Shown: one piece after another, positions 22,891 to 44,527 of the stretch | Numbering within the stretch: position 1 is the stretch's first letter | Layout of the letters: each line of letters starts with the position of its first letter | NCBI GenBank assembly: GCA_002049495.1 | Contig: LLYS01000001.1 | Coordinates: 310,001-374,000 of the forward strand | Source: Epsilonproteobacteria bacterium tcs-49 | GTDB taxonomy: Bacteria; Campylobacterota; Campylobacteria; Campylobacterales; Sulfurovaceae | Reading direction: 5' to 3' | DNA: 64,000 bases | Translations under genes and position numbers: made by a program | The notes under the pieces: generated by a model | What the model saw: the letters and a program-made list of their open reading frames with translations, nothing else | Database searches by the model: none | Told to the model about the DNA's origin: nothing

Positions 22891-24204
22891 TCATCGCACA
22901 CTCATTCCCTCATCCATATACTTCACCAGCGGATAGATAAAAAATTCGATAATCCTGCGTTTTCCCACCTTCAACTCGGCGGTCACGCTCATACCAGAGT
23001 GCAGCGGCAGAGTTTCCCCATCGACTTCCAAAGAGGTTTGCTCGGGATCGATATAAACTTCATAAACGGGTCCGAGTTTTTCATCCTCTACCGCATCGTC
23101 GGAGATGTGCTTGACTTTTCCGTCGATCAGGCCGTATTTTTGAAAGTTGAACGTATCCACTTTCACCGCACTTTCCATCCCCTTTTTGATAAATCCCACA
23201 TCTTTATTAAGTACCTTTGCCTTGACCATCAGCGGCACGGATTTGGGCACGATAGAGATAAGTTTTTCCGCCGGCGTCACTACGCCTCCGACCGTATGCA
23301 CCATCAACTTTCCCACATAACCGTCTACGGGGGAGCGCAGACGCTGCTTCGCGCTTTTGAACTCGATCGCTTCTATCTCCACTTTGAGGGCTTGAAGTTC
23401 CTTGCTCTTTTTCGTAAGCTGCTCCAACAGGGTATTTTTATATTTTTGGGTTGAAAGTTTTCGCTGTTTTTGCAATTCCCGCTTTTTTGAATCCAGCTGC
23501 TGCACCTCATGGGTTTTCATCGAGAGCTGCTCTTTGAGATTAAGGGTCTCATCGACAAGCTTCTCATACTCTTTGCGGGCTACAATATCCAGTACCTGCT
23601 CCATACGACGCTGCCTTATAAGCGAATTTTCATACAATTGCTGCAACCGTCCCCTGTCCACTTCGGCGGAAAGAAGCTGTTCCTCGGTCTGCTCCAGCTG
23701 ATCGTTAAGTACCCCCTGTTCCTGTTCGTGGGAACTTTTCAGGGTTTCATATATGTTTTGCTGCGTGCGTATCTCCCTGTCCATATTCTCAACCTTTGAG
23801 GGGATAAAAAGAGTATCCTCGATCAAAGCGTTTAAACGGGCAAGTTCCAACTCCAATACCTTCAAACGGTTCTGCTTGGCTTCCAGGTTCGTTTCCGTCA
23901 CGGAGGGGTCGATCTCCATAAGCACCTGGCCCTTTTTGACCTGTTCCCCCTCTTTGACAAGAATTTTACTTATCACGCCCGTTTCGATAGGCTGCATCAC
24001 CTTGACCTCTCCGTCGGGGATCACCTTCCCCCTAGCGCTGACGACGATATCGACCTTGGCGAAGTAAAGCCATAAAGAGGTCAAAACCATAAAGATCACG
24101 ACGATCCACAGCAGACTGCGCCCCAGAGGGTTAAGCGGGCGCTCCTCAATCTCTACCAAGAGGGGTTTAAACTCATGTTTATCTTTGGTGTGAAATAGGT
24201 TCAT
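22891..24204 (-). CDS. Type I secretion membrane fusion protein (HlyD/LapC type)
   Basis: A 437-residue periplasmic adaptor linking the inner-membrane ABC exporter to TolC. A short cytoplasmic tail and one membrane segment (about residues 29-50) come first. The barrel begins with SARGKVIPDGEVKVMQPIETGVI, a long coiled coil spans about residues 100-290, and the C-terminal beta domain includes RSPVDGYVGKLMVHTVGGVV and ends MDEGMSVR. The start is 2 bases after the ABC gene, so it is the last gene of the secretion operon. Confidence 0.93.
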   Translation of the reverse strand: MNLFHTKDKHEFKPLLVEIEERPLNPLGRSLLWIVVIFMVLTSLWLYFAKVDIVVSARGKVIPDGEVKVMQPIETGVISKILVKEGEQVKKGQVLMEIDPSVTETNLEAKQNRLKVLELELARLNALIEDTLFIPSKVENMDREIRTQQNIYETLKSSHEQEQGVLNDQLEQTEEQLLSAEVDRGRLQQLYENSLIRQRRMEQVLDIVARKEYEKLVDETLNLKEQLSMKTHEVQQLDSKKRELQKQRKLSTQKYKNTLLEQLTKKSKELQALKVEIEAIEFKSAKQRLRSPVDGYVGKLMVHTVGGVVTPAEKLISIVPKSVPLMVKAKVLNKDVGFIKKGMESAVKVDTFNFQKYGLIDGKVKHISDDAVEDEKLGPVYEVYIDPEQTSLEVDGETLPLHSGMSVTAELKVGKRRIIEFFIYPLVKYMDEGMSVR

Positions 24205-24206
24205 CT

Positions 24207-26306
24207 CTATCCTTGCTGCATATAAAGTCGGTAATAATAGCCCTGCTGCGCCATCAACTCTTCGTGGGAGCCCTGCTCGACCACTTCACCTTTATCCAAA
24301 ACAAGGATCACGTCGCAATCCTTGACGGTACTGAGGCGATGAGCGACGATAAACATCGTCCGTCCCTTTTTGATATGTTCGAGGTTTTCTTGTATGATCT
24401 TTTCCGATTCGTAATCCAGTGCGGAGGTCGCTTCGTCAAAGATGAGAATCTTTGGATTGGACAACAGTGCCCTGGCGATGGCTACCCGCTGTCGCTGACC
24501 GCCGGAGAGGGAGGCCCCACGCTCCTCGACCATCGTATCGTACCCTTCGGGCAGCTCGGCCACAAACTCATGGGCCCCGGCCACTTTCGATACGGCGATT
24601 ATCTGTTCCATGGAAGCGTTGGGGCGTCCCAGAGCGATGTTTTCTTTGATCGTTCCGGTAAAAAGAAAATTTTCCTGCAATACGACGCCTATATGGTTCC
24701 GCAGCCATTTGGGGTTCATATGCTTGATATCCACGCCATCAATATAGATCGCGCCACCGCTGGGGACATAAAGCCGCTGTATCAACTTCGTAACGGTACT
24801 TTTTCCGCTGCCGCTGCGCCCTACGAGTCCGATAGACTGTCCCCCCTCAAACTCCGCGGAAATCCCTTTGAGAACGGGCGGTTTATCGGGCCCGTAGGAG
24901 AAACTCACCTTGTCAAAACGCACCTGCGCGTCCACCTTCGACAGCGTGATCGCTTTGTCGTTTTTCTGTTCGGTGGGCGTATTGAGTATATCCCCCAGCC
25001 GATCCACCGAAAGCAGGGTCTGCTGGAACTCGTTCCAAAGATTTACAAGCCGCAAAACGGGACCGCTGAACTGGTTGGCAAACATTTGAAACGCAATGAG
25101 CTGCCCGACGCTGAGCCTCCCCTCAAGCACCAGCGTTACCCCCACGTAAAGCATGGAGATGGTCATGAGTTTTTGCAGCATACCCGAAAGTCCGCCGAGA
25201 ATATTGGAAAGATTACTCAGGTGAAAACCGGAATTGACGTACTTTCCGAGATGATCCTCCCATTTACGCTGCATAGATCCCTCAAGTGCCAGGGATTTGA
25301 CCGTTTGCACCCCGGTAACCGATTCAACCAGATACGCATTGTTTTGTGCTCCCATTTGAAACTTTTCCTCCAGCCGCCTGCGCAGCTCGGGAGTAACAAA
25401 AAGATAGATCAAGGCGATCACGAGCACGAAACTCAATACGATCAGTGTCAGTTTGACGCTGTAAAGAAACATCACCGCTACAAAAACCCCCGAAAACAAA
25501 ACATCGAGTATGACACTGACGGATTTGTTGGCGATAAATTCGCGTATCTGATCCAGCTCGCGAACCCGGGCGATAATGTTGCCCACCTTCCGCCGCTCAA
25601 AATAGGCGATGGGCAAAGCCATCAAGTGGTGAAAAAGCTTGGCCCCCAGCTTTGCGTCGATCTTTGAGGTGGTATGGACGAAGATATAGTTTCGCACGAT
25701 GTTTATGATGAAATCAAAAACCGTTACGGCCAAAAAAGCGATAGCGAGCACGTCCAGCGTCGTCATAGAGTGGTGCACCAGAACCTTATCTAAAATCACC
25801 TGGGTAAACAACGGAGTCACCAACCCGAAAAGCTGGAGGATAAACGACGCCGCCAGCACCTCCCCGATGATCGTTTTGTAGTTAAGAATTTGCTTGTAGA
25901 ACCAGCCGAAACCAAAGCGTACCTGCTGTGAAAGCATCCTGTGCTTTAAAACGATAAACTTTTCCTCGGCGATCTGCTCGTAATCGTCAAAGGAGAGGAT
26001 GTAGGGCTCTTTTGCGCTCGTATCAAAAACCAGCAACTCTCTTTTTTCTTCGTCCGCTTTGATGAGGGTAAAATACTCTCCCTCCTTTTTTTGAGCGATA
26101 ATGGGAAGGGGGTAGTTTTGCAACGCTTTTTCAAGCCCCACTTTTTTGATGCCCGCACGAAAACCCTGATGCTTTGCGATACGTACCAGCTCCTCGATGG
26201 GAGGTTCCTGCTCTTCTAAAGCGTACTCCTTTGCTATATTTTGACTGTCTATTGAGATACGGTTTAGCTGTCCCGCAACCTCCAGTGCCGTTAAAGCTGA
26301 ACGCAT
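24207..26306 (-). CDS. Type I secretion ABC exporter (HlyB type)
   Basis: A 699-residue permease-ATPase that drives RTX proteins across the envelope. Residues 1-125 form a C39-like domain without the catalytic cysteine (it opens SALTALEV), as in HlyB, so substrates are bound by it but not cut. Membrane segments lie at about 145-400. The ATPase has Walker A GRSGSGKST (496-504), signature LSGGQ (600-604) and Walker B LIFDE (621-625). It lies 83 bases after the TolC gene and 2 bases before the HlyD gene. Confidence 0.95.
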   Translation of the reverse strand: MRSALTALEVAGQLNRISIDSQNIAKEYALEEQEPPIEELVRIAKHQGFRAGIKKVGLEKALQNYPLPIIAQKKEGEYFTLIKADEEKRELLVFDTSAKEPYILSFDDYEQIAEEKFIVLKHRMLSQQVRFGFGWFYKQILNYKTIIGEVLAASFILQLFGLVTPLFTQVILDKVLVHHSMTTLDVLAIAFLAVTVFDFIINIVRNYIFVHTTSKIDAKLGAKLFHHLMALPIAYFERRKVGNIIARVRELDQIREFIANKSVSVILDVLFSGVFVAVMFLYSVKLTLIVLSFVLVIALIYLFVTPELRRRLEEKFQMGAQNNAYLVESVTGVQTVKSLALEGSMQRKWEDHLGKYVNSGFHLSNLSNILGGLSGMLQKLMTISMLYVGVTLVLEGRLSVGQLIAFQMFANQFSGPVLRLVNLWNEFQQTLLSVDRLGDILNTPTEQKNDKAITLSKVDAQVRFDKVSFSYGPDKPPVLKGISAEFEGGQSIGLVGRSGSGKSTVTKLIQRLYVPSGGAIYIDGVDIKHMNPKWLRNHIGVVLQENFLFTGTIKENIALGRPNASMEQIIAVSKVAGAHEFVAELPEGYDTMVEERGASLSGGQRQRVAIARALLSNPKILIFDEATSALDYESEKIIQENLEHIKKGRTMFIVAHRLSTVKDCDVILVLDKGEVVEQGSHEELMAQQGYYYRLYMQQG

Positions 26307-26389
26307 TGTTTTTGTCCTTGCGATAAGATTTGCAGTGAACGCCGCTGGCTGTGAAGATCAATTCTTTGCAGCTCCACCTTCAGTTTGTT

Positions 26390-27589
26390 TTATAAATTTT
26401 CTATTCGCTTGGCCACTACACGGGGCTTGTCCGCTTCTCCGTTTTGTTTCATCCTTTGCAGCATCACTTCAAGTTCCCGGCTTTTTTCGCTGGTCTTTTT
26501 AGAGATCGTGTACTGCTTTTGCAACTGGGCGAGATTTTGCCGTCTGGTTTCAAACCTGTAGCGGTGCTGTCTTTTCAAAAGCTTTTTTTGCTCCTGCAGC
26601 CGCAGCAACTCCAGGCGCAAACGGCGCCGCTCATGCTCGGATTTAAACCCTTCAAACAGGTTAAAGCGTATGCCTAGTCCCACTTTCCAGCTGTTGCTGC
26701 TGATATCTTCGTAAGCACTCTCCAGCGACCCGGGGTCGGCACCGTAGAAATAGTAGTTGCCGTACAAGGCCAATGCCGGCAGGCGTGATCGTTTAGATAT
26801 TTCCAGCTCCAGTCGCTTTTGCTCGATCTTTTTTTGTATTTCTCGGCCCTTCACACTCTTTTCAAACAGCGGTTTGGCCGGGTGGGTATTTTGTGAAGTT
26901 TGAATCGGTAGCAGTCGGCTTTGATTATCCAAAGGCACGTGGGTCAATTCGCTTAGGCGAAGAAGCAGCTGTTCATACTCTTTTTGCATTCCGGCCATAT
27001 TTTGCTGACGCTTAACCAGTGTCAGCGCCGCTTCTCCCAATGCGATCTTTGAGTATTCGCCCGCCGTATATAAACGCATAAGATCACGCATATTCCTCTG
27101 CCCCAGGGAGATAATCTCCCGGTTTGTTTTCAAACGCCGCTGCAGCTTGAGCGCCCGGGTAAAATGATCCAGGATCTCAAGGTCGAGTTTTTGCTTTTGT
27201 TGACAATACAGTAACGTTTTGACGCGTATCTCTTTGAGGGCTGTCGCAACTTTGCGTTCAAATACCCCGAAGCGGTAAAGATCGTAGTTCATGTTCAACG
27301 CTACCGAGCTTTTATACTTGGTTCCGCTGCTGATCACCGTATCGCCTACGCTTTCCGTTTCTCCCGTCTGGCTTAGATCTTTATAATATTCGCTGTTGGC
27401 GCTGAGTGCGAAGGTGGGATAATACCCCGATTTGACCTCCTCCAGGCGCTGTTTTTCGATACGCGTATCGATATCTTTTAAAACCAGTGTTTTTGAGTGC
27501 CGGTGTGCCGAATCCAGTAACTGTTCAAACCCTACCCCTTTTGCGCATAGCAAAAGGGGCAGCCATAATGCCGCCGCAACTATCCGCAT
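26390..27589 (-). CDS. TolC-family outer membrane channel
   Basis: A 399-residue protein with a signal peptide (residues 1-16, ending near LLLCAKG) and two repeats of the outer membrane efflux fold. The repeats are seen as long amphipathic helices with EVKSGYYPTFALSANSEYY in the first and RLPALALYGNYYFYG in the second. It forms the exit duct of the type I system. It is 9 bases behind the RTX gene 27599-30613, which ties channel, exporter and substrate together. A dedicated TolC within an RTX operon is typical of LapE/TolC-type systems. Confidence 0.88.
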   Translation of the reverse strand: MRIVAAALWLPLLLCAKGVGFEQLLDSAHRHSKTLVLKDIDTRIEKQRLEEVKSGYYPTFALSANSEYYKDLSQTGETESVGDTVISSGTKYKSSVALNMNYDLYRFGVFERKVATALKEIRVKTLLYCQQKQKLDLEILDHFTRALKLQRRLKTNREIISLGQRNMRDLMRLYTAGEYSKIALGEAALTLVKRQQNMAGMQKEYEQLLLRLSELTHVPLDNQSRLLPIQTSQNTHPAKPLFEKSVKGREIQKKIEQKRLELEISKRSRLPALALYGNYYFYGADPGSLESAYEDISSNSWKVGLGIRFNLFEGFKSEHERRRLRLELLRLQEQKKLLKRQHRYRFETRRQNLAQLQKQYTISKKTSEKSRELEVMLQRMKQNGEADKPRVVAKRIENL

Positions 27590-27598
27590 TAGACGCCT

Positions 27599-30500
27599 TT
27601 ACTGCTGCCAAGCCGAGGTGATGATCTGCATCATCTGATCGTTGCCTCGGATATCATCGTTGTCGATCCGGTGCATATCTTTCTCTTTGGCATAGGCGTT
27701 GATCTGCTGCACGACCAAATCCAGATCTTCATGATTTAAGTAGTTTCCGTCACTAAGTTGAACTTTTTCTATTTGAGACTCTTTTTTATCTTGATCTTTT
27801 ATAATTATTGAATCATTGTCACTATATTGTAGATATAGATCCCCTCTTTTTTCATAAAAGCTGATATCTTCTTTATTTACACTTTCCCCAAAAGCAACAG
27901 TATCCTCTCCTCCGTCTGGTTTTTTTATATTCCACCATAGAAAGCTTCTTGATGGTTCACTATCTTGTATCGTATCTACTCCGTCTCCTTTTTCAAACAT
28001 ATAGGTATCATTACCTAATCCACCTTCTAAGTAATCTCTATCTTTACTTCCTATAAGCGTATCATTTCCATCTTGTCCGTAAAGGCTGTCTCTTCCTCTA
28101 CCTCCATAGAGGTTATCGTTATCTTCGCCGCCATGAAGTTTATCTCTGCCTTCATTTCCTGTAAGCAAGTCATCTCCGTCGTTACCGTAGAGTGTATCGC
28201 TGCGAGAACTACCAAAAAGGATGTCGTTTCCTGATCCGCTTTCTAGGTAATCTCTAAAGCGTGAACCTTCTATCAAGGTATCTGCATCACTGTTACTGCT
28301 GTTGTTATATCCAAAGAAAAAACAAAAACTGTTTGATGACTCTATCACATCTTTATGAAGAGAAATTGATCCTTGTTTGGTTAAAAGCGTATCCACTCCG
28401 CTGTCTGCATCTTTGAAATAATCTTTAAGTGTGATCGTTGCATCATCACTTTGAATTCGTATAAGCATATCATTGCCGCTTTGTTCAAAGTCTAGATCAC
28501 TTTTGTTAATATGTTCAAGAGACAGACTATCGCCGTCACTATCGTTTATAACCAGATCACTGCCTTCATAGATATAGCCTTGCCTGCTGAAGTTAAGGTT
28601 TTTTTCTACCGTAGCGCCGTTACCGTCATCAACGGTAATTACTGCGCTATCTTCTCCGTTATATGAAGGCTCTGCCTCATAGTGCCAGTTACCTTCTTCA
28701 TCTACATGCAGTTCTCCATGAGTTACATTAGAAGTGATCGTATAGGTTAATGCATCGCCGTCTACATCATTTGCATCTATACTGCCATCAATCTCTCTGA
28801 TATTTACTAAATCGATGTTTTCTACAGGGGTTGCTAATTCGGGAGCATGATTTGCCAGCTCTTCAATAGTAAAAATATCTCCATTAAAAAAAACAGATCG
28901 TTCAATAGCATTATGATCACGTATTGCATTTTTTATAGTGATACCGTCTCTGCTCTGTGTTGCTTGATCTTCATCGTATTTAAAAGAAAGCATTATATTG
29001 TCGTCTTCATATTTGACGACTATATCCGAAGCCGATATCCCTTCACCGAATTTGATTGTATCAACTCCGTGTTGATCAAAAATAATGTCTTTGCCGTCAC
29101 CTCTGTTAAAAACATAGGTATCATCACCCTCTCCGCCTTCAAGGCTGTCATTACCCTTTCCACCTTTGAGCAGATCATTGCCGGCCCTGCCTACAAGATC
29201 ATTATCATCTTCATTACCTTCGATCACATCATCTGCATCAGTCCCCGTATTCACCGCATCAAACAAAATTTTTGCTATATCTGAGTTGTTTTGTGCGTTA
29301 AAGGACAATCCTCCGGTTTCTTCTGCCAACTCTTGGAAATCAGAAACAGTAGTTGCATTACCGTCTATGGCTATCGTATAAATTTCAATATTGAACGGTG
29401 CGGCCGTTTTTTCTGCCGTAAAAACAGCATCGGTTTTCGTAACAGTATTATTTACTGCCATACTTTGTAAACTTTTTGTACTCAACCCTATCCCCTCAGC
29501 CAGTGCCAGTACGTCAGAAAGCAGCTCTTTATCTTTGCCCGGAGCGTCCCCGAAAAGAAAAATTCTTCTTGCCGCAGCGTCTTCACGCCACGTTCCCGCT
29601 CCCCCGTTTAACGCCCTGAGCAAACCGGAATAAACCATCTCAGGAAAGTCTCCTCCCCCACTGGCACCAAGTGCGTTGATTGCCAAAAGCGCTTCGGCTT
29701 TGTTGTGTGTAAATGATTGTACCGTTTGGGTTGAGGGATCATTGTACCCCACTACCGCAACCCTTGAATTGACCGTTTCATCGCCCTGTTGAAACAAAGA
29801 GTCGATAATACTGTTGGCCTGGGATTTCACCAATGCGATATCATCGCCCATCGAACCGGTCGTATCAACCACGAATACAACGTCCTGCCCCTGATTGTCT
29901 CTAAGTCTGATTCCCAACGAATCCTCTTCCTTGTCGAAATTTTTAATTATCAAATCATCGTTGACCGTCAATGTGTTACGGACTGTATCAAGTTTGTATG
30001 TTGTTTTTCCGTCCTCACTGACATAAACTTTTTGATTTTTTGTAGATTTTTTTCTGTCCAGTATTCCTCCTGTAAGTTCTACACTGCTACCCTTGCCGTT
30101 TTTAAAAAGCACTTTCCCTAAACCGTCGCTGTCTTGTATAATATCACCGCTGTTTACATGATATGTATCAAAACCACTGCCGCCTGCAAGTGTATCAGCT
30201 CCTTCTTTGCCATACATGACATCATCACCGCCGTTACCGTTTAAAGTATCATCTCCCCGCTCCCCAAAGATCAAATCGTTATTGTCGGTGCCGTTGAGGG
30301 TATCGTTATAAGCGTTGTTTGTATCTGCATAGTCTTTTGCATTGTTTTCTCCGATACCCTGACCTACGATGATATCTCCGTCTATAGTAGTGCCTTGGGC
30401 GTAGTTGCTGATGAGATGATTTTTTGCAGGGGCAAGTTTTGTGTCGATAAGTCCATCATTTTCATAAGCACTTTTGATTGGATTATCATTTCCGCTTGGT

Positions 30501-30613
30501 GTGAAAATGTTGTGTTCTACGGCATAAATGGTACCTTTATGCTTTGTGTACATCTGCATGACTTGTTTGTAGTAGTTTTCATCGGCATCGGTGGGATAGA
30601 GATCACTCAGCAA
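27599..30613 (-). CDS. VWA- and RTX-domain secreted protein, likely 3' part of a split lysozyme-RTX gene
   Basis: A frame of 1004 codons. In order it holds a linker (1-100), an RTX block (about 105-155), a von Willebrand A domain with metal site DTTGSM (about 246-430), a second RTX block (455-520), and a cadherin-like repeat (about 605-700). A third RTX block (780-890) and a C-terminal export region of about 110 residues (KRGDLYLQYS, LSDGNYLNHEDLDLVVQQI) follow. The first codon is TTG without a convincing ribosome site, 11 bases inside the lysozyme frame, so I think both frames were one gene. The C-terminus matches that of the giant RTX protein at 34315-44094. Confidence 0.85.
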   Translation of the reverse strand: MLSDLYPTDADENYYKQVMQMYTKHKGTIYAVEHNIFTPSGNDNPIKSAYENDGLIDTKLAPAKNHLISNYAQGTTIDGDIIVGQGIGENNAKDYADTNNAYNDTLNGTDNNDLIFGERGDDTLNGNGGDDVMYGKEGADTLAGGSGFDTYHVNSGDIIQDSDGLGKVLFKNGKGSSVELTGGILDRKKSTKNQKVYVSEDGKTTYKLDTVRNTLTVNDDLIIKNFDKEEDSLGIRLRDNQGQDVVFVVDTTGSMGDDIALVKSQANSIIDSLFQQGDETVNSRVAVVGYNDPSTQTVQSFTHNKAEALLAINALGASGGGDFPEMVYSGLLRALNGGAGTWREDAAARRIFLFGDAPGKDKELLSDVLALAEGIGLSTKSLQSMAVNNTVTKTDAVFTAEKTAAPFNIEIYTIAIDGNATTVSDFQELAEETGGLSFNAQNNSDIAKILFDAVNTGTDADDVIEGNEDDNDLVGRAGNDLLKGGKGNDSLEGGEGDDTYVFNRGDGKDIIFDQHGVDTIKFGEGISASDIVVKYEDDNIMLSFKYDEDQATQSRDGITIKNAIRDHNAIERSVFFNGDIFTIEELANHAPELATPVENIDLVNIREIDGSIDANDVDGDALTYTITSNVTHGELHVDEEGNWHYEAEPSYNGEDSAVITVDDGNGATVEKNLNFSRQGYIYEGSDLVINDSDGDSLSLEHINKSDLDFEQSGNDMLIRIQSDDATITLKDYFKDADSGVDTLLTKQGSISLHKDVIESSNSFCFFFGYNNSSNSDADTLIEGSRFRDYLESGSGNDILFGSSRSDTLYGNDGDDLLTGNEGRDKLHGGEDNDNLYGGRGRDSLYGQDGNDTLIGSKDRDYLEGGLGNDTYMFEKGDGVDTIQDSEPSRSFLWWNIKKPDGGEDTVAFGESVNKEDISFYEKRGDLYLQYSDNDSIIIKDQDKKESQIEKVQLSDGNYLNHEDLDLVVQQINAYAKEKDMHRIDNDDIRGNDQMMQIITSAWQQ
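27657..27721. repeat. 65-bp exact repeat, copy 1 (RTX export signal)
   Basis: These 65 bases are identical to 34370-34434, and similarity continues with few changes for about 35 more. Both copies encode the same C-terminal segment of two RTX proteins. Confidence 0.95.
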
Positions 30614-31244
30614 CTCTTCGCTCTGCCATTCCCGTGCCTACTGTTTGATAACTCTTTCCTCCATTGGATTGGTAGCGGATTTGAAACCATGCTTCGGCTC
30701 TGTCGTTGTTTTGCAATGCGTTCACCAGATCTGTTCCAAACAGACCTGCTCCGCCGTTGTAAGCCAAATCTACGAGGGCTACGAGTTCTTTGGTGTTGGC
30801 TAGTGAATTGTAAAGAGCGGTGCCGAGTTTTGATTTGACGATATTTTCGTAGGTGTCTTTGATGGTGAGAAAGAGCTCTCCTACTTGTGTGGATGAGAGC
30901 GTTATGGCATTGGCGGAGGCGTTGTAGGTATCTACTAGGGCTTTGACTTGGGATTCTTTTTGGGCGGTGTTGAGGGAGGTTGCCAAAATTCCGTTTGAGT
31001 CATCATATAAGTCTTTCAGTGCCTGTTCTTCTTCGGCAGACAAAGTAATCCCTGCCACTGAAAAATCAGCTTTGACTAAAGCAAATGTTGTGCGTGCAGT
31101 CAGTGCATAACCCGCTCCGATAGTCGGCACGCCGACACCGTCTGTGTGTACTTTTAGTACACTTGTTTTAGAACCCTCTTTACTTGTGATAAAAGCTTTG
31201 AGTGCTGTTTCGTAATCCGTTGTATGTAATCCTGTAAGTGCCAT
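30603..31244 (-). CDS. T4-type lysozyme domain protein (GH24), likely 5' part of the RTX effector gene
   Basis: A 213-residue protein matching phage T4 lysozyme in order and spacing. Catalytic triad candidates are E23 (KEG), D35 (HTDG) and T41 (PTIGAGY). D35-T41 spacing equals that of D20-T26 in T4 lysozyme. Later come LVDLAYNGGAGLFG and a closing AERRVAE, like the GH24 C-terminal RRxAE. There is no signal peptide and no phage gene nearby. The frame stops at TGA exactly where the RTX frame begins. An AAGGAG site lies 9 bases before the start, one base after the inhibitor gene. Alone it would lack an export signal. Confidence 0.85.
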   Translation of the reverse strand: MALTGLHTTDYETALKAFITSKEGSKTSVLKVHTDGVGVPTIGAGYALTARTTFALVKADFSVAGITLSAEEEQALKDLYDDSNGILATSLNTAQKESQVKALVDTYNASANAITLSSTQVGELFLTIKDTYENIVKSKLGTALYNSLANTKELVALVDLAYNGGAGLFGTDLVNALQNNDRAEAWFQIRYQSNGGKSYQTVGTGMAERRVAE

Positions 31245-31245
31245 G

Positions 31246-32250
31246 TTATTTTTCTCCTTGTTGTGTTTGGGATTTTTCTATTTTTTTGAATGGAATAATT
31301 GCTTGCCATACTCCAGTGAACCTAATAGTTGGGTCTTCTGAAGATGTTCTGCTTAAAATCTTGTATAACTCAAAATAAACTTTGTGATTTTGATCCCATA
31401 TCAAATCAAATACATACTCCTGCTCTTTATAGCTGATAATTCCAGCATGATATAGCCCAGACTGCGACCTCTTCACCCTCTCTCTATCATAATTCAGTGC
31501 ATCCACAAGATTGTTTTTGAGTCTCTCTTGTTTACAAAGTGCGGTATCGACTAAGTAGGCACTGCCTGAGGTTGTAGGTTTGATAAACAACCACTCTTTA
31601 TTTTTGGCGGTTGTTTTCCAAACAGATACATTGATATCACGAAGGGGTTTTCGCTCATCTTCCACCCAATACTTTTTACCATCTTCTATATATTTTGGAT
31701 GATCAAACTCTCCTATTTCCAAATCAAATCTATAAAAGTAACAAACCCCTAAAATCTCTTTGAGTCTGGGGTCGTTGTATTGGACATTTTCAATAAGAGG
31801 GGGTTTGAATTGGATGTTTTTGAAGCGGAATAAGTCATCTTTGAACTTTAGTCCTGCATCGATGCGTTCTTGTTCACTAAAGATGATGGGATTCCATACT
31901 ATCTCCATGTGCTCTTGTGCCTCTTTCATCGCATCGAGGTAGAGCTTGGGGAAGGTTTTTTGATTGGCAAGAGAAGTGGTGAGTTCTTCTACTCTCTTTG
32001 TATAAGCCTCTTTGATGCAGTTTGTATCTTGGCATGTGTTTCTCTTTTTAATCCATGCTCTTTGGTCGGTTTTTATCTCTTTGGTGAGGAGGTAAAAACT
32101 TGTATAAACCCTGTTCAGTTTTTCATCAAACTGTGACAACTCTTTATCTGCACATATCATCTTCTCTACATTTGTTGTTGCATGGGTGCAATCAAAGCTT
32201 GCTGCTAAGAGGGAGATATTTACAAAGAGTATGAGGAGTAGTTTTTTCAT
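31246..32250 (-). CDS. LprI-like (DUF1311) periplasmic protein, candidate lysozyme immunity protein
   Basis: A 334-residue protein with a signal peptide (residues 1-17) and an LprI/DUF1311 domain in residues 20-95. It shows C21 and C33 in the VEKMICADKELSQFDEKLN motif, then QRAWIKKRNTC with C73 and C78. The family is named for the Mycobacterium lysozyme inhibitor LprI. The other 230 residues I do not recognise. It is one base before the lysozyme frame, so it is probably co-translated with it. Protection from that lysozyme is inference. Confidence 0.78.
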   Translation of the reverse strand: MKKLLLILFVNISLLAASFDCTHATTNVEKMICADKELSQFDEKLNRVYTSFYLLTKEIKTDQRAWIKKRNTCQDTNCIKEAYTKRVEELTTSLANQKTFPKLYLDAMKEAQEHMEIVWNPIIFSEQERIDAGLKFKDDLFRFKNIQFKPPLIENVQYNDPRLKEILGVCYFYRFDLEIGEFDHPKYIEDGKKYWVEDERKPLRDINVSVWKTTAKNKEWLFIKPTTSGSAYLVDTALCKQERLKNNLVDALNYDRERVKRSQSGLYHAGIISYKEQEYVFDLIWDQNHKVYFELYKILSRTSSEDPTIRFTGVWQAIIPFKKIEKSQTQQGEK

Positions 32251-32592: not shown

Positions 32593-33588
32593 TTATTTGA
32601 AAGTATTTATCTCATCTTCTAAATCTTGCAATCTGTTTAGTATCTCTTCAAACTCAAGATTTTTATGAAAAATCATATTTTGCATCGCTTTGTAATCTTT
32701 TTGCAGCTCTTTGATATGAAACTCTGAGGGCATTAGTTTTACACTTCCGGGTTTAGCCATTTCAAACTGTGCCCATGTGGCAGGGTAAAACTTGAGTTTA
32801 AAATCAACCACCTGTTTTAATAGTTCTAAATCATTTAATGCTTCATCTTTTATTGAAGACTCAGCCATCATGGCTAGATCATAATAGTGCCTTGAGTATC
32901 TTATAGGAAGTTTTTTTTCTTTATCACGATTTGCTTCTTGATGTAAAATCGTTACTTTTTCCCAAAAAGTTCGTTTAGCAAGTATCGTATTTACTTTGCA
33001 TGAGTGCTTTTGAAAAAGCCTAGGGAAAACTTCTACTACATAAGCAGATATTTCAAAGCTCTCCCAAGGCATCCATGAAGCTAAGGGACCAATCTCAAGC
33101 AATACTTCATTTCTTAAATAAGTGTCTTTAAAAGTTGCCGGGTAACTCACTTTGATATTAAAAGGATTGTCTTCATCAATTTTGCATTTACAATATGGAT
33201 GCAATATAGTTTCTACTCTCCCCAGTAGTTGCTCTTTGATATACACTTTTGCGTTTTCATTTATCAGCTGATTGAACTTAACTTGTTTGTTTTTACTTGG
33301 GTGATCTTTTTTAGGATCATCTTTTGTCACCTCTCTCCAATCAAGTATCAAATCTATATCTTCAGAAAATCTACCGATAACATTAAAAACTTTAGAAAGT
33401 GAAGTTCCGCCTTTAAACATTAGTATTTTACTTAAAGCTTCATCGCTAAATATCTTGTCCAGTATCCAAACAACCCAGAAATCTTTTTCTACGATTGAGG
33501 GATGCACCGCCATTTTATGCGCAGCTTCTGAAAAAAGTTCCTTTCTTTCATGAATTTCAAATTGCGTGATTTTATTCATTAGTATCAT
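32593..33588 (-). CDS. AbiEii/AbiGii-type nucleotidyltransferase toxin
   Basis: A 331-residue toxin of the type IV AbiE abortive-infection system. The N-terminus has VEKDFWVVWILDKIF. The nucleotidyltransferase motifs are GGTSL at residues 60-64 and the DxD pair D77/D79 in RFSEDIDLIL. Family members pyrimidylylate tRNA acceptor ends or otherwise use NTPs to stop growth until phage spread is blocked. The start overlaps the antitoxin gene by 17 bases, so the pair is translated together. The base composition is AT-rich compared with the flanking core genes. Confidence 0.9.
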   Translation of the reverse strand: MILMNKITQFEIHERKELFSEAAHKMAVHPSIVEKDFWVVWILDKIFSDEALSKILMFKGGTSLSKVFNVIGRFSEDIDLILDWREVTKDDPKKDHPSKNKQVKFNQLINENAKVYIKEQLLGRVETILHPYCKCKIDEDNPFNIKVSYPATFKDTYLRNEVLLEIGPLASWMPWESFEISAYVVEVFPRLFQKHSCKVNTILAKRTFWEKVTILHQEANRDKEKKLPIRYSRHYYDLAMMAESSIKDEALNDLELLKQVVDFKLKFYPATWAQFEMAKPGSVKLMPSEFHIKELQKDYKAMQNMIFHKNLEFEEILNRLQDLEDEINTFK

Positions 33589-34189
33589 CTTTTTTACAAA
33601 TTTTTTTTATCGTTTCATAGACCCAATCAGTAGTTGTGACCGTATCTTTTAAGATTTTATCATACATTTTTTTATCTATTTGCTTTTTTATTTTAACGAT
33701 AATATCTTCATTGACATTTTCTTTACCCAGTGCCCTTAATGCTTGAACTATCAAAGAGCTTTCTTTGTACTTAAAGCCTATGTTTTTGAGTGCTGATTTT
33801 TTAAATTCAAGGGTAATATTGTCATAAATAACATATTGTTTTTTTGGACCGTTGCTTAGATAGATATATTTACTAACTACTTGCGTAGAAAGTCCTAAAA
33901 TGTTCAGTGCACTTTCTCCGCTGATTTCTATTTTCCAGTTAAACTTTCTAGCATAAGCGTGAGCTACTTGCTCAACATCAGGCGAGAGTTCACTTTGTAA
34001 AATTTGGCTATACTTTGGATAATCGTACATCCCTCTTGCAAGCCTTCTGATTTTCCCTTGGTGTACTAAATCCGAAAGCGTGTTATCTATCTCTTGTCTT
34101 GAAAATTTATGGATCAAGTCATGTGAGGAAAACGCCCATCCTCTTCCATGACTTCTAATAAAATGAAATATCTTTTCATAGAGTTTCAA
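33572..34189 (-). CDS. AbiEi-type antitoxin (DUF6088)
   Basis: A 205-residue partner of AbiEii. The N-terminal winged helix includes QEIDNTLSDLVHQGKIRRLARGMYDYP, the usual AbiEi DNA-binding part. The remainder (GESALNILGLSTQVVSKYIYLSNGPKK) is the domain that neutralises the toxin. Start is TTG at 34189 behind an AGGAAA site. In the family the antitoxin represses its own promoter by binding inverted repeats; a perfect palindrome sits 16 bases upstream at 34205-34222. Confidence 0.88.
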   Translation of the reverse strand: MKLYEKIFHFIRSHGRGWAFSSHDLIHKFSRQEIDNTLSDLVHQGKIRRLARGMYDYPKYSQILQSELSPDVEQVAHAYARKFNWKIEISGESALNILGLSTQVVSKYIYLSNGPKKQYVIYDNITLEFKKSALKNIGFKYKESSLIVQALRALGKENVNEDIIVKIKKQIDKKMYDKILKDTVTTTDWVYETIKKICKKDDTNE

Positions 34190-44095: not shown

Positions 44096-44527
44096 CTACC
44101 TGTACGTCATCCGCTGAATCTGCCGCCACTGTTTGGGGGTTACGATCTTTTTAAACCGGTTGAGCGCATCGATCCGGCTGTCCATAGCTTCTCGCTTCAA
44201 GGTGGCGATTGCATCAAGAAGCTCTTTAAGCTCCGCTTTCCCATGCCCTTTTGCCACCATGCGCTGCACCTTTTTTTCCAAGGTGAACGCTTCACGCATT
44301 TTGCTTTGGAACAGGGGCACATACACCGCTTTGATCTCCTTTTTTATACGCATCTTTTGCTCTGTGTTAAGTTGCAGCTTATCGTTATGCAGCTTTACCA
44401 GTTTGCCCGGGTGGGGCAAAAAAACCAATTCGTCAATCCTGAACTTGTTGCTTTTACCTGACGCCGCTTCGGCTTGCAGCGCAAAAACAAACGCCAGAAA
44501 AACTATTCCTGCTATCCTTTGCATCAT
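44096..44527 (-). CDS. Spy/CpxP-like periplasmic protein
   Basis: A 143-residue protein with a signal peptide (residues 1-21, ending AEAASG) and an all-helical mature part. The helices carry LNTEQKMRIKKEIK and a closing VTPKQWRQIQ, like the LTxxQ motifs of Spy and CpxP. Such proteins act as periplasmic chaperones or envelope stress sensors. It follows the outer-membrane protein gene by 6 bases. Its stop is one base before the start of the giant RTX frame. The family call is moderate because LTxxQ is only approximately matched. Confidence 0.7.
   Translation of the reverse strand: MMQRIAGIVFLAFVFALQAEAASGKSNKFRIDELVFLPHPGKLVKLHNDKLQLNTEQKMRIKKEIKAVYVPLFQSKMREAFTLEKKVQRMVAKGHGKAELKELLDAIATLKREAMDSRIDALNRFKKIVTPKQWRQIQRMTYR

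Follow-up and report, generated by a model that had tools for sequence, protein, structure and literature searches.

The 64,000-nucleotide stretch analysed here (the window; positions 310,001 to 374,000 of contig LLYS01000001.1 of Epsilonproteobacteria bacterium tcs-49) holds on its minus strand a six-gene locus which, as we hold with fair confidence, belongs to a polymorphic system of antibacterial toxins, in a copy that is probably disabled. Such a system would be delivered by type I secretion (a type I secretion system, T1SS) and be built of RTX proteins with exchangeable N-terminal toxin domains (the tips) and immunity genes upstream of them. From the LprI-like gene (the partner) through a GH24 lysozyme (the tip), a VWA/RTX protein (the carrier), a TolC-like channel and an HlyB-type exporter to an HlyD-type adaptor, the six open reading frames (ORFs) are separated by 1, -11, 9, 83 and 2 bases (Table 1), exactly the order and gaps of an earlier model-made note on this DNA, the original prediction, which proposed an antibacterial lysozyme carried out of the cell by the RTX protein, a type I exporter and an LprI-like protein guarding the producer periplasm. 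In that proposal the recurring gene pair and the neighbouring exporter have stood, whereas the fusion of lysozyme and RTX protein in this copy, the constancy of LprI and self-protection of the producer during transit call for correction. What the DNA shows directly is the pairing of genes, the exchange of tips, a carrier and exporter held in common and, in the window, the break in frame.

A comparison of near-identical carriers supports this reading. The VWA region of the window carrier finds matches, many of them weak, in 43 of 397 genomes of the phylum, from eight of which the regions were taken for comparison. The HlyD-TolC-HlyB genes and carrier of genome G385 have 97.3% DNA identity with those of G497 and 98.1% with those of G503 over 6.5 kb, a similarity that starts inside the toxin gene, before the VWA domain; upstream of that point, blastn gave no match between G385 and G497 or G503 at E ≤ 1e-5, and in place of the lysozyme and the LprI protein G385 has an N-terminal domain of another kind and a partner that differs too, resembling by eye a membrane protein. 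The same carrier thus bears different N-termini, and tip and upstream partner differ together. The exchange of N-termini is also found within a single genome, G344, where two carriers are 98.9% identical over their 626 C-terminal residues and differ in their N-termini, one of them lipase-like with a GHSLGG motif (Abhydrolase_1 just below the cut-off) and the other related to the G385 tip, and in each case a separate small ORF overlaps the start of the carrier. The VWA-RTX carrier of G351 has yet another N-terminus, one that contains LysM. A VWA-RTX protein with a LysM-containing N-terminus also occurs in locus L113 (L113:5316-9230), abutting a small ORF with a weak SLATT-like match below the cut-off.

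Moreover, orphan cassettes lie near these genes. Upstream of its LprI-lysozyme pair, G503 carries a gene whose identity with two partner-type genes of G385 is 70% and 74%, with no tip matching it within the 19.5 kb region; in G344 the lipase-like tip occurs a second time, truncated and preceded by an ORF, and G385 shows runs of similar small genes. Exchange, paired partners and orphan cassettes are the marks of polymorphic toxin systems, but the tip would here be N-terminal and the antidote upstream, an order that, from what is understood of T1SSs, is to be predicted if the type I export signal has to sit at the C-terminus. On this reading, each of the exchanged N-termini would be toxic. Searched against PDB sequences, the tip of L146 had no match at E ≤ 1. 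Of the eight regions, L147 (a short VWA protein), L148 and L149 (RTX ORFs cut by contig ends) and L150 and L151 (other kinds of VWA proteins) neither add to nor contradict the exchange.

The pairing of the lysozyme with an upstream gene recurs across many lineages. Lysozyme matches occur in three of 175 genomes of the window's own family (its own, G106 and a spurious one in G119, locus L003, dropped as unrelated because the ORF looks by eye like a fatty-acid oxidation enzyme) and in 16 of the 397 of the phylum, the window's own included. A scan of one genome per species, from which 80 of 102 matching stretches were kept, gave matches from Campylobacterota, Nitrospirota, several proteobacterial classes, Desulfobacterota, Planctomycetota and others, as judged by record titles. 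Hits with E > 1e-6 were dropped before counting, together with ten loci (the window itself, L001; L017, which has an insertion element and equals L111; and the repeats L002, L007, L009, L010, L011, L016, L020 and L021), and the counted set comprises 105 lysozyme ORFs outside the window, some of them fragments, with two or three in several loci. Taking as the partner the longest co-directional ORF of at least 100 residues within 120 bases, or else the nearest within 250, such an ORF lies directly upstream of 95 of the 105, the other ten being without it; the distance is 70 bases or less for 83 of these 95, and some overlap by one or four bases. As a control, loci L023 to L102 show an ORF within 70 bases upstream for 73 of 88 lysozyme ORFs (those with at least 500 bases upstream) in comparison with 201 of 464 other ORFs of at least 250 residues, so that closeness alone is a moderate signal and the mere presence of a neighbour weak evidence, the recurrence of the same families being the stronger one.

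Three profile families take in 64 of the 96 partners (the window's included), and for each of the 63 members other than the window's the distance to the lysozyme is 70 bases or less. The main family, with 50 members by profile, has conserved cysteines and the consensus KGKGVxVCEAYxKNL, which comes from a subset (A5) of 16 proteins with four invariant cysteines and a DIDNDGK motif; the LprI-like family has 20 members and that of the window-type C-terminal domain seven, while eight proteins combine LprI with the main-family domain. Because these profiles were both made from and run against just the 96 proteins, their E-values refer to that small set; phmmer single-linkage clustering grouped 63 of the 96, of which 61 are common with the profile set. 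No Pfam family besides LprI, found in 18 of the 96 at E ≤ 0.01, matches more than one partner, and among NCBIfam families only the LprI-like NF049887 and a weak SaoC (two members) do so. PDB sequence searches with 16 main-family members gave a single match (E 0.23), and with the window partner none at E ≤ 1.

Two simpler schemes for the partners did not hold up: LprI as a universal antidote was rejected, given that only 20 of the 96 carry it by profile, and one common C-terminal fold for all of them found no support, hhalign between the three profiles giving 0.1-0.2% probability. Of the 76 partners without LprI, most of those assigned to a family have other modules. LprI is thus a genuine front part of a modular partner, though an optional one, and this partner is presumed to be an immunity protein. 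Regarding the guard of the producer periplasm that had been attributed to LprI, LprI-like neighbours do recur at other loci instead of being absent from them, but LprI is not the constant immunity module. The six-gene set is unlikely to have come together by chance: the LprI profile has 18 matches in 41 whole related genomes, against 18 of the 96 partners by Pfam; the single one of this genome lies 1 base from the lysozyme, and the pairing recurs.

Partner and tip distances covary (rho 0.25 over 896 comparisons drawn from 44 pairs, with 0 of 2000 permutations), a figure confounded by relatedness which shared descent by itself might produce, and tandem partner-lysozyme pairs are found in L024, L028, L036, L038, L052, L067, L076, L088 and L089. 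A signal-peptide rule was positive for 62 of the 95 upstream ORFs versus 257 of 1053 control ORFs of 150-450 residues from the same loci, although it is crude, misses signals evident by eye and does not serve as a main argument. In the window partner, a hydrophobic leader (by eye, a signal peptide) precedes an LprI domain at residues 21-83 and a C-terminal domain; with VIA-align, the matches of the LprI part were unspecific (best Z 7.3) and the C-terminal domain had no trustworthy match. Its first 94 residues match the phage family phrog_4675 (90.8 bits), which indicates that phages carry LprI-like proteins too. Variants of the arrangement include L107:7031-9504, where a tandem of two LprI-type partner genes, the leading one interrupted, precedes the lysozyme, and L099:4611-7348 of Helicobacter anseris, in which an ORF overlapping the lysozyme start resembles, by its sequence, a DUF285/PARCEL-repeat protein and not an LprI-type one.

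In the window, the lysozyme ORF ends at a stop just after RRVAE, 11 bases into an RTX ORF of another frame, and lysozyme and RTX repeats do not share one polypeptide as they do in L041 (Sulfurimonas, 3312 residues) and L065 (3166 residues). In the aligned relatives, lysozyme and linker continue in a single frame: the lysozyme match of G497 spans about the first 203 residues of its ORF, and the window RTX ORF aligns by blastp, from residue 2, to the same G497 ORF from residue 206 on, the joining segment in the window being about 11 bases shorter than in the fused relatives. Since relatives encode lysozyme and RTX protein as a single ORF, the overlap of -11 is a frame break. On the simplest reading of these alignments, one ancestral gene would have been split into a tip-less carrier and a lysozyme without export signal, the window copy is probably disabled and, with its two frames differing, it would probably export an unarmed carrier. 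The prediction that the RTX protein takes the lysozyme out of the cell therefore fails for the copy as assembled; fusions of GH24 lysozyme and RTX repeats, which it led one to look for, do exist in relatives, but an LprI gene does not always adjoin them.

Two other accounts of the frame break deserve consideration. The two frames could be a working design, in which the lysozyme is made alone or a ribosomal frameshift gives some fusion protein, and indeed the RTX frame is open over 1004 codons, the lysozyme ORF keeps its catalytic motif and an 11-base overlap is compatible with coupled translation. We find this unlikely, given the single frame of the relatives, the shorter joint of the window, the fact that no shared shift site was noticed, though no systematic search for one was made, and the occurrence of other broken toxins in the phylum, where G497 and G503 have differing premature stops in their VWA-RTX part and G495 has an insertion element within the lysozyme gene. 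The toxin gene of L109 also looks split beside its unbroken relative L110, and in L112 (G106) toxin and partner genes both look broken; an open partner ORF stands beside the broken toxin in five of six cases (the window included; collected by eye, not exhaustively, and too few for a test). Alternatively, an error of sequencing or assembly alone may have split an intact fusion gene of a fully functional system, as could happen in a 17-contig draft genome. A joint about 11 bases short with respect to the fused relatives is, however, no one-base homopolymer slip, which makes such an error quite improbable.

The lysozyme tip itself keeps, as originally claimed, residues E23, D35 and T41. Among the 106 sequences (the window included), 96 have letters at all three catalytic columns, with E and D kept in 87 of these 96 and E, D and T in 68, positions that correspond to those of T4 lysozyme. 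The AlphaFold model of the window lysozyme (predicted local confidence, pLDDT, 84.2) aligned best in VIA-align with pesticin (Z 9.5 over 168 residues, root-mean-square deviation 3.7 Å, 16% identity), T4 lysozyme having Z 8.4 over 142 residues and 3.9 Å. The 50 matches listed (Z 8.1-9.5, a range for which the tool warns in the case of helical folds) are lysozymes, endolysins and pesticin, the remaining chains presumably being T4-lysozyme fusion chains; Foldseek placed T4 lysozymes first, with a best E of 0.028 and none ≤ 0.001. As far as a model with Z values in that warning range can tell, nothing in it contradicts a lysozyme fold. At least three RTX motifs are found by a simple pattern in 66 of the 105 lysozyme ORFs, several of which exceed 3000 residues, while others are cut by contig ends.

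Regarding delivery, the HlyB/HlyD/TolC exporter adjoins the toxin in some relatives, and the same modules also occur with a type VI secretion system (T6SS). In L105, an LprI-bearing partner and a lysozyme ORF of 1194 residues come after a VgrG homologue, in a region whose TssK- and Hcp-like ORFs (by eye) give it the look of a T6SS cluster, and in L109 and L110 the order is VgrG, another partner and then the lysozyme. An LprI-bearing partner and a lysozyme also make up L106, L107 and L108, with no VgrG or T1SS homologue in the 19.5 kb around them. Lysozyme-LprI pairs behind both VgrG and T1SS carriers suggest that tip and antidote modules are common to the two delivery machines. The set, of which the original prediction knew no described counterpart, is thus not unique: it appears to be one tip of a polymorphic system that occurs across many phyla and has modules in common with T6SS clusters. 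In a Mucispirillum metagenome-assembled genome (L101:6987-12736), a VgrG, recognized by Pfam and NCBIfam, stands upstream of a divergent lysozyme relative without the catalytic residues.

From these arrangements we infer enzymatic activity, inhibition, export, entry into a target and an antibacterial purpose. An RTX carrier with its C-terminal export signal would leave the cell through HlyB-HlyD-TolC, bypassing the producer periplasm, then fold in calcium and attach to neighbouring cells through its VWA, Ig-like and RTX parts, and its exchangeable N-terminal toxin domain, here the GH24 lysozyme, would cut the peptidoglycan of the neighbour. The upstream gene would encode a Sec-exported partner that stays in the producer envelope and blocks the same lysozyme when it comes from kin. 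Given that type I export does not pass through the producer periplasm, defence against toxin from kin and neighbours is a more plausible role for the partner than defence against the producer's own toxin on its way out.

Several observations weigh against such a system. Crossing of the target's outer membrane by the lysozyme is its weakest step, and with lysozyme and RTX protein in separate frames the window copy may not work. Within the DNA covered at each locus, HlyB and HlyD homologues are both present in only 14 of 60 loci of at least 10 kb, and either of them in 31, counts in which the HlyB criterion also catches other ABC transporters and some loci have their flank taken up by the toxin gene or cut by a contig end. 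An upstream ORF at close distance is found for about 40% of ordinary ORFs as well, 32 of the 96 partners fall outside the three families, and the AlphaFold model of the window partner is poor (mean pLDDT 56), with its C-terminal domain not modelled. Finally, 11 Rhizobiales loci (L032, L033, L042, L059, L066, L077, L079, L082, L083, L087 and L090) show upstream only ORFs that look non-coding, four of which are counted among the 83 close ones. The lysozyme-RTX proteins of these 11 loci, about 440-620 residues long, may serve another purpose.

The loci without a plausible partner would fit a different explanation, namely that the RTX protein is an adhesin and its lysozyme a peptidoglycan enzyme for housekeeping or surface anchoring, which makes room in, or binds, the producer's own wall, the partner being an ordinary envelope protein of the lysozyme-inhibitor kind. 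Large adhesins typically contain VWA, Ig-like and RTX repeats, all of which the carrier has. In addition, a portion of PMC7933661 describes an LprI-domain protein with a periplasmic cell-wall role in Salmonella. What speaks against a housekeeping enzyme is the joint exchange of tip and partner on a near-identical carrier, the existence of tandem arrays and tip-less partner genes and the presence of the lysozyme-partner pair behind VgrG, none of which is to be expected of it, and we regard this explanation as rather unlikely in comparison with a polymorphic toxin system.

Table 1. Genes and features of the toxin locus, in coordinates of the window
Feature	Positions	Strand	Basis
LprI-like partner, presumed periplasmic immunity protein	31246-32250	minus	ORF and Pfam LprI
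GH24 lysozyme-like putative toxin tip, E23/D35/T41	30603-31244	minus	ORF and Pfam Phage_lysozyme
Lysozyme/RTX frame overlap, 11 bases	30603-30613	minus	Inside one continuous ORF in relatives
RTX carrier: linker, VWA, bacterial Ig-like, RTX nonapeptide blocks, C-terminal region common with the second carrier	27599-30613	minus	
TolC-like outer-membrane channel	26390-27589	minus	Pfam OEP
HlyB-type exporter, C39-like N-terminal domain	24207-26306	minus	TIGR01846
HlyD-type periplasmic adaptor	22891-24204	minus	TIGR01843
Second, larger RTX carrier, 3259 residues	34315-44094	minus	

Profile scores agree with the assignments first made for the lysozyme, VWA/RTX, HlyB and HlyD genes. The partner passes the Pfam cut-off for LprI (PF07007, 27.1 bits versus 22) and the lysozyme that for Phage_lysozyme (PF00959, 33.4 versus 22.3). 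Nonapeptide calcium-binding repeats are present in the VWA/RTX ORF, where HemolysinCabind reaches 121.7 bits (cut-off 23) in eight stretches, beside a VWA_4 domain at 91.8 bits (cut-off 27). A type I exporter is found at the locus, with HlyB above both cut-offs (ABC_membrane, 197.1 versus 28; the NCBIfam type I family TIGR01846, 879.8 versus 725.55) and likewise HlyD (HlyD_3, 70.9 versus 22.2; TIGR01843, 344.3 versus 208.65), whereas TolC is recognized by Pfam OEP only (106.9 versus 22), falling under the cut-off of the NCBIfam type I TolC family (TIGR01844, 37.5 versus 225.15). A pore-forming RTX toxin had been held less likely for want of an HlyC acyltransferase; a search of the genome gave no HlyC match, but 14 control genomes were equally silent, so that absence of HlyC is not shown by it.

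The second carrier is 49.5% identical to the first over its 437 C-terminal residues and is probably, judging by this region, a cargo of the same exporter. It begins mid-domain (by eye) with no recognisable tip, adjoining a short unrelated ORF at 44096-44527, and may have lost its own N-terminal tip. Between both carriers (32593-34189, minus strand) lie an AbiEii-type nucleotidyltransferase (Pfam, 119.9 bits) and a DUF6088/AbiEi-like partner, within the 2-kb block that has the window's highest A+T content. Elsewhere in the genome (L152, G000:C14:114883-115206) there is a LapG-like gene of the Peptidase_C93 family, which in other systems cleaves RTX adhesins at the surface; retention of the carrier there through LapG was one of the readings considered. 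A promoter scan gave about the number expected from shuffled sequence (26 versus 21.5, standard deviation 4.2) and a terminator scan slightly more (16 versus 10.9, standard deviation 3.2); neither was used.

Known systems share parts of this arrangement. In the case of CDI (contact-dependent inhibition, CdiA), MafB and Rhs toxins, a conserved carrier has an exchangeable tip, an adjacent immunity gene and orphan cassettes, with the tip C-terminal and the immunity gene downstream, an order reversed here. The lysozyme-fold bacteriocin pesticin, which is not known as an RTX protein, gave the best structural alignment of the modelled tip and exemplifies the use of this fold against bacteria, although that alignment lies only about one Z unit above T4 lysozyme, at 16% identity. 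The closest precedent is the FrpC/FrpD pair of Neisseria meningitidis, which resembles the present pair in its large T1SS RTX protein with a variable N-terminus and a partner from the same operon that binds the N-terminal part (passages of PMC6759196 and PMC5472700). According to the portion of PMC5472700 at hand, which also mentions MafB cassettes, the variable N-terminus of FrpC has about 350 residues. The two pairs differ in that the tip here can be recognised as a GH24 lysozyme, with an LprI or other-module protein as its partner, and that FrpD is described in these excerpts as surface-exposed, unlike the presumed periplasmic partner here.

In this context, a passage of PMC6759196 hypothesised, without showing it, that FrpC/FrpD is a T1SS antibacterial effector with its immunity protein; it also reported an effector of an X-T4SS (a type IV secretion system) that resembles the N-terminal domain of many RTX proteins and has an immunity protein resembling FrpD. 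The X-T4SS effector-immunity pair Smlt3024/Smlt3025 of Stenotrophomonas has its partner gene upstream, as stated there for most such effectors, and differs from ours in type IV delivery and in having no lysozyme. As to LprI (DUF1311), excerpts of PMC8867033 present it as a T6SS immunity domain in a predicted LysM/LprI pair of Salmonella Dublin and cite a report that LprI of M. tuberculosis inhibits lysozyme, and LprI-domain neighbours of WHIX effectors appear in part of PMC12135965. These LprI proteins are likewise partners of peptidoglycan-cutting effectors; unlike our pairs, the effectors are T6SS-delivered and not RTX fusions, and the Dublin partner lies downstream. No paper on lysozyme-tipped RTX proteins or on T1SS polymorphic toxins with N-terminal tips was found by the titles and abstract beginnings among the matches listed, from a literature that left preprints and most subscription journals outside.

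Type I secretion is usually viewed as exporting host-acting toxins, enzymes, adhesins and small bacteriocins. The comparisons presented here lend support to the earlier suggestion on FrpC/FrpD and reveal lysozyme-LprI pairs behind both T1SS carriers and VgrG. Going beyond this locus, we lean, with some reserve, towards the view that RTX proteins of many phyla make up a class of antibacterial polymorphic toxins not recognised until now, in which T1SS-exported carriers bear at the N-terminus tips that can be exchanged (lysozyme, lipase-like and further domains), with immunity genes upstream and a pool of modules shared with T6SS effectors. If so, many giant RTX proteins would be antibacterial weapons with the toxin at the N-terminus and the antidote gene upstream, and the function of such RTX proteins would become predictable and testable.

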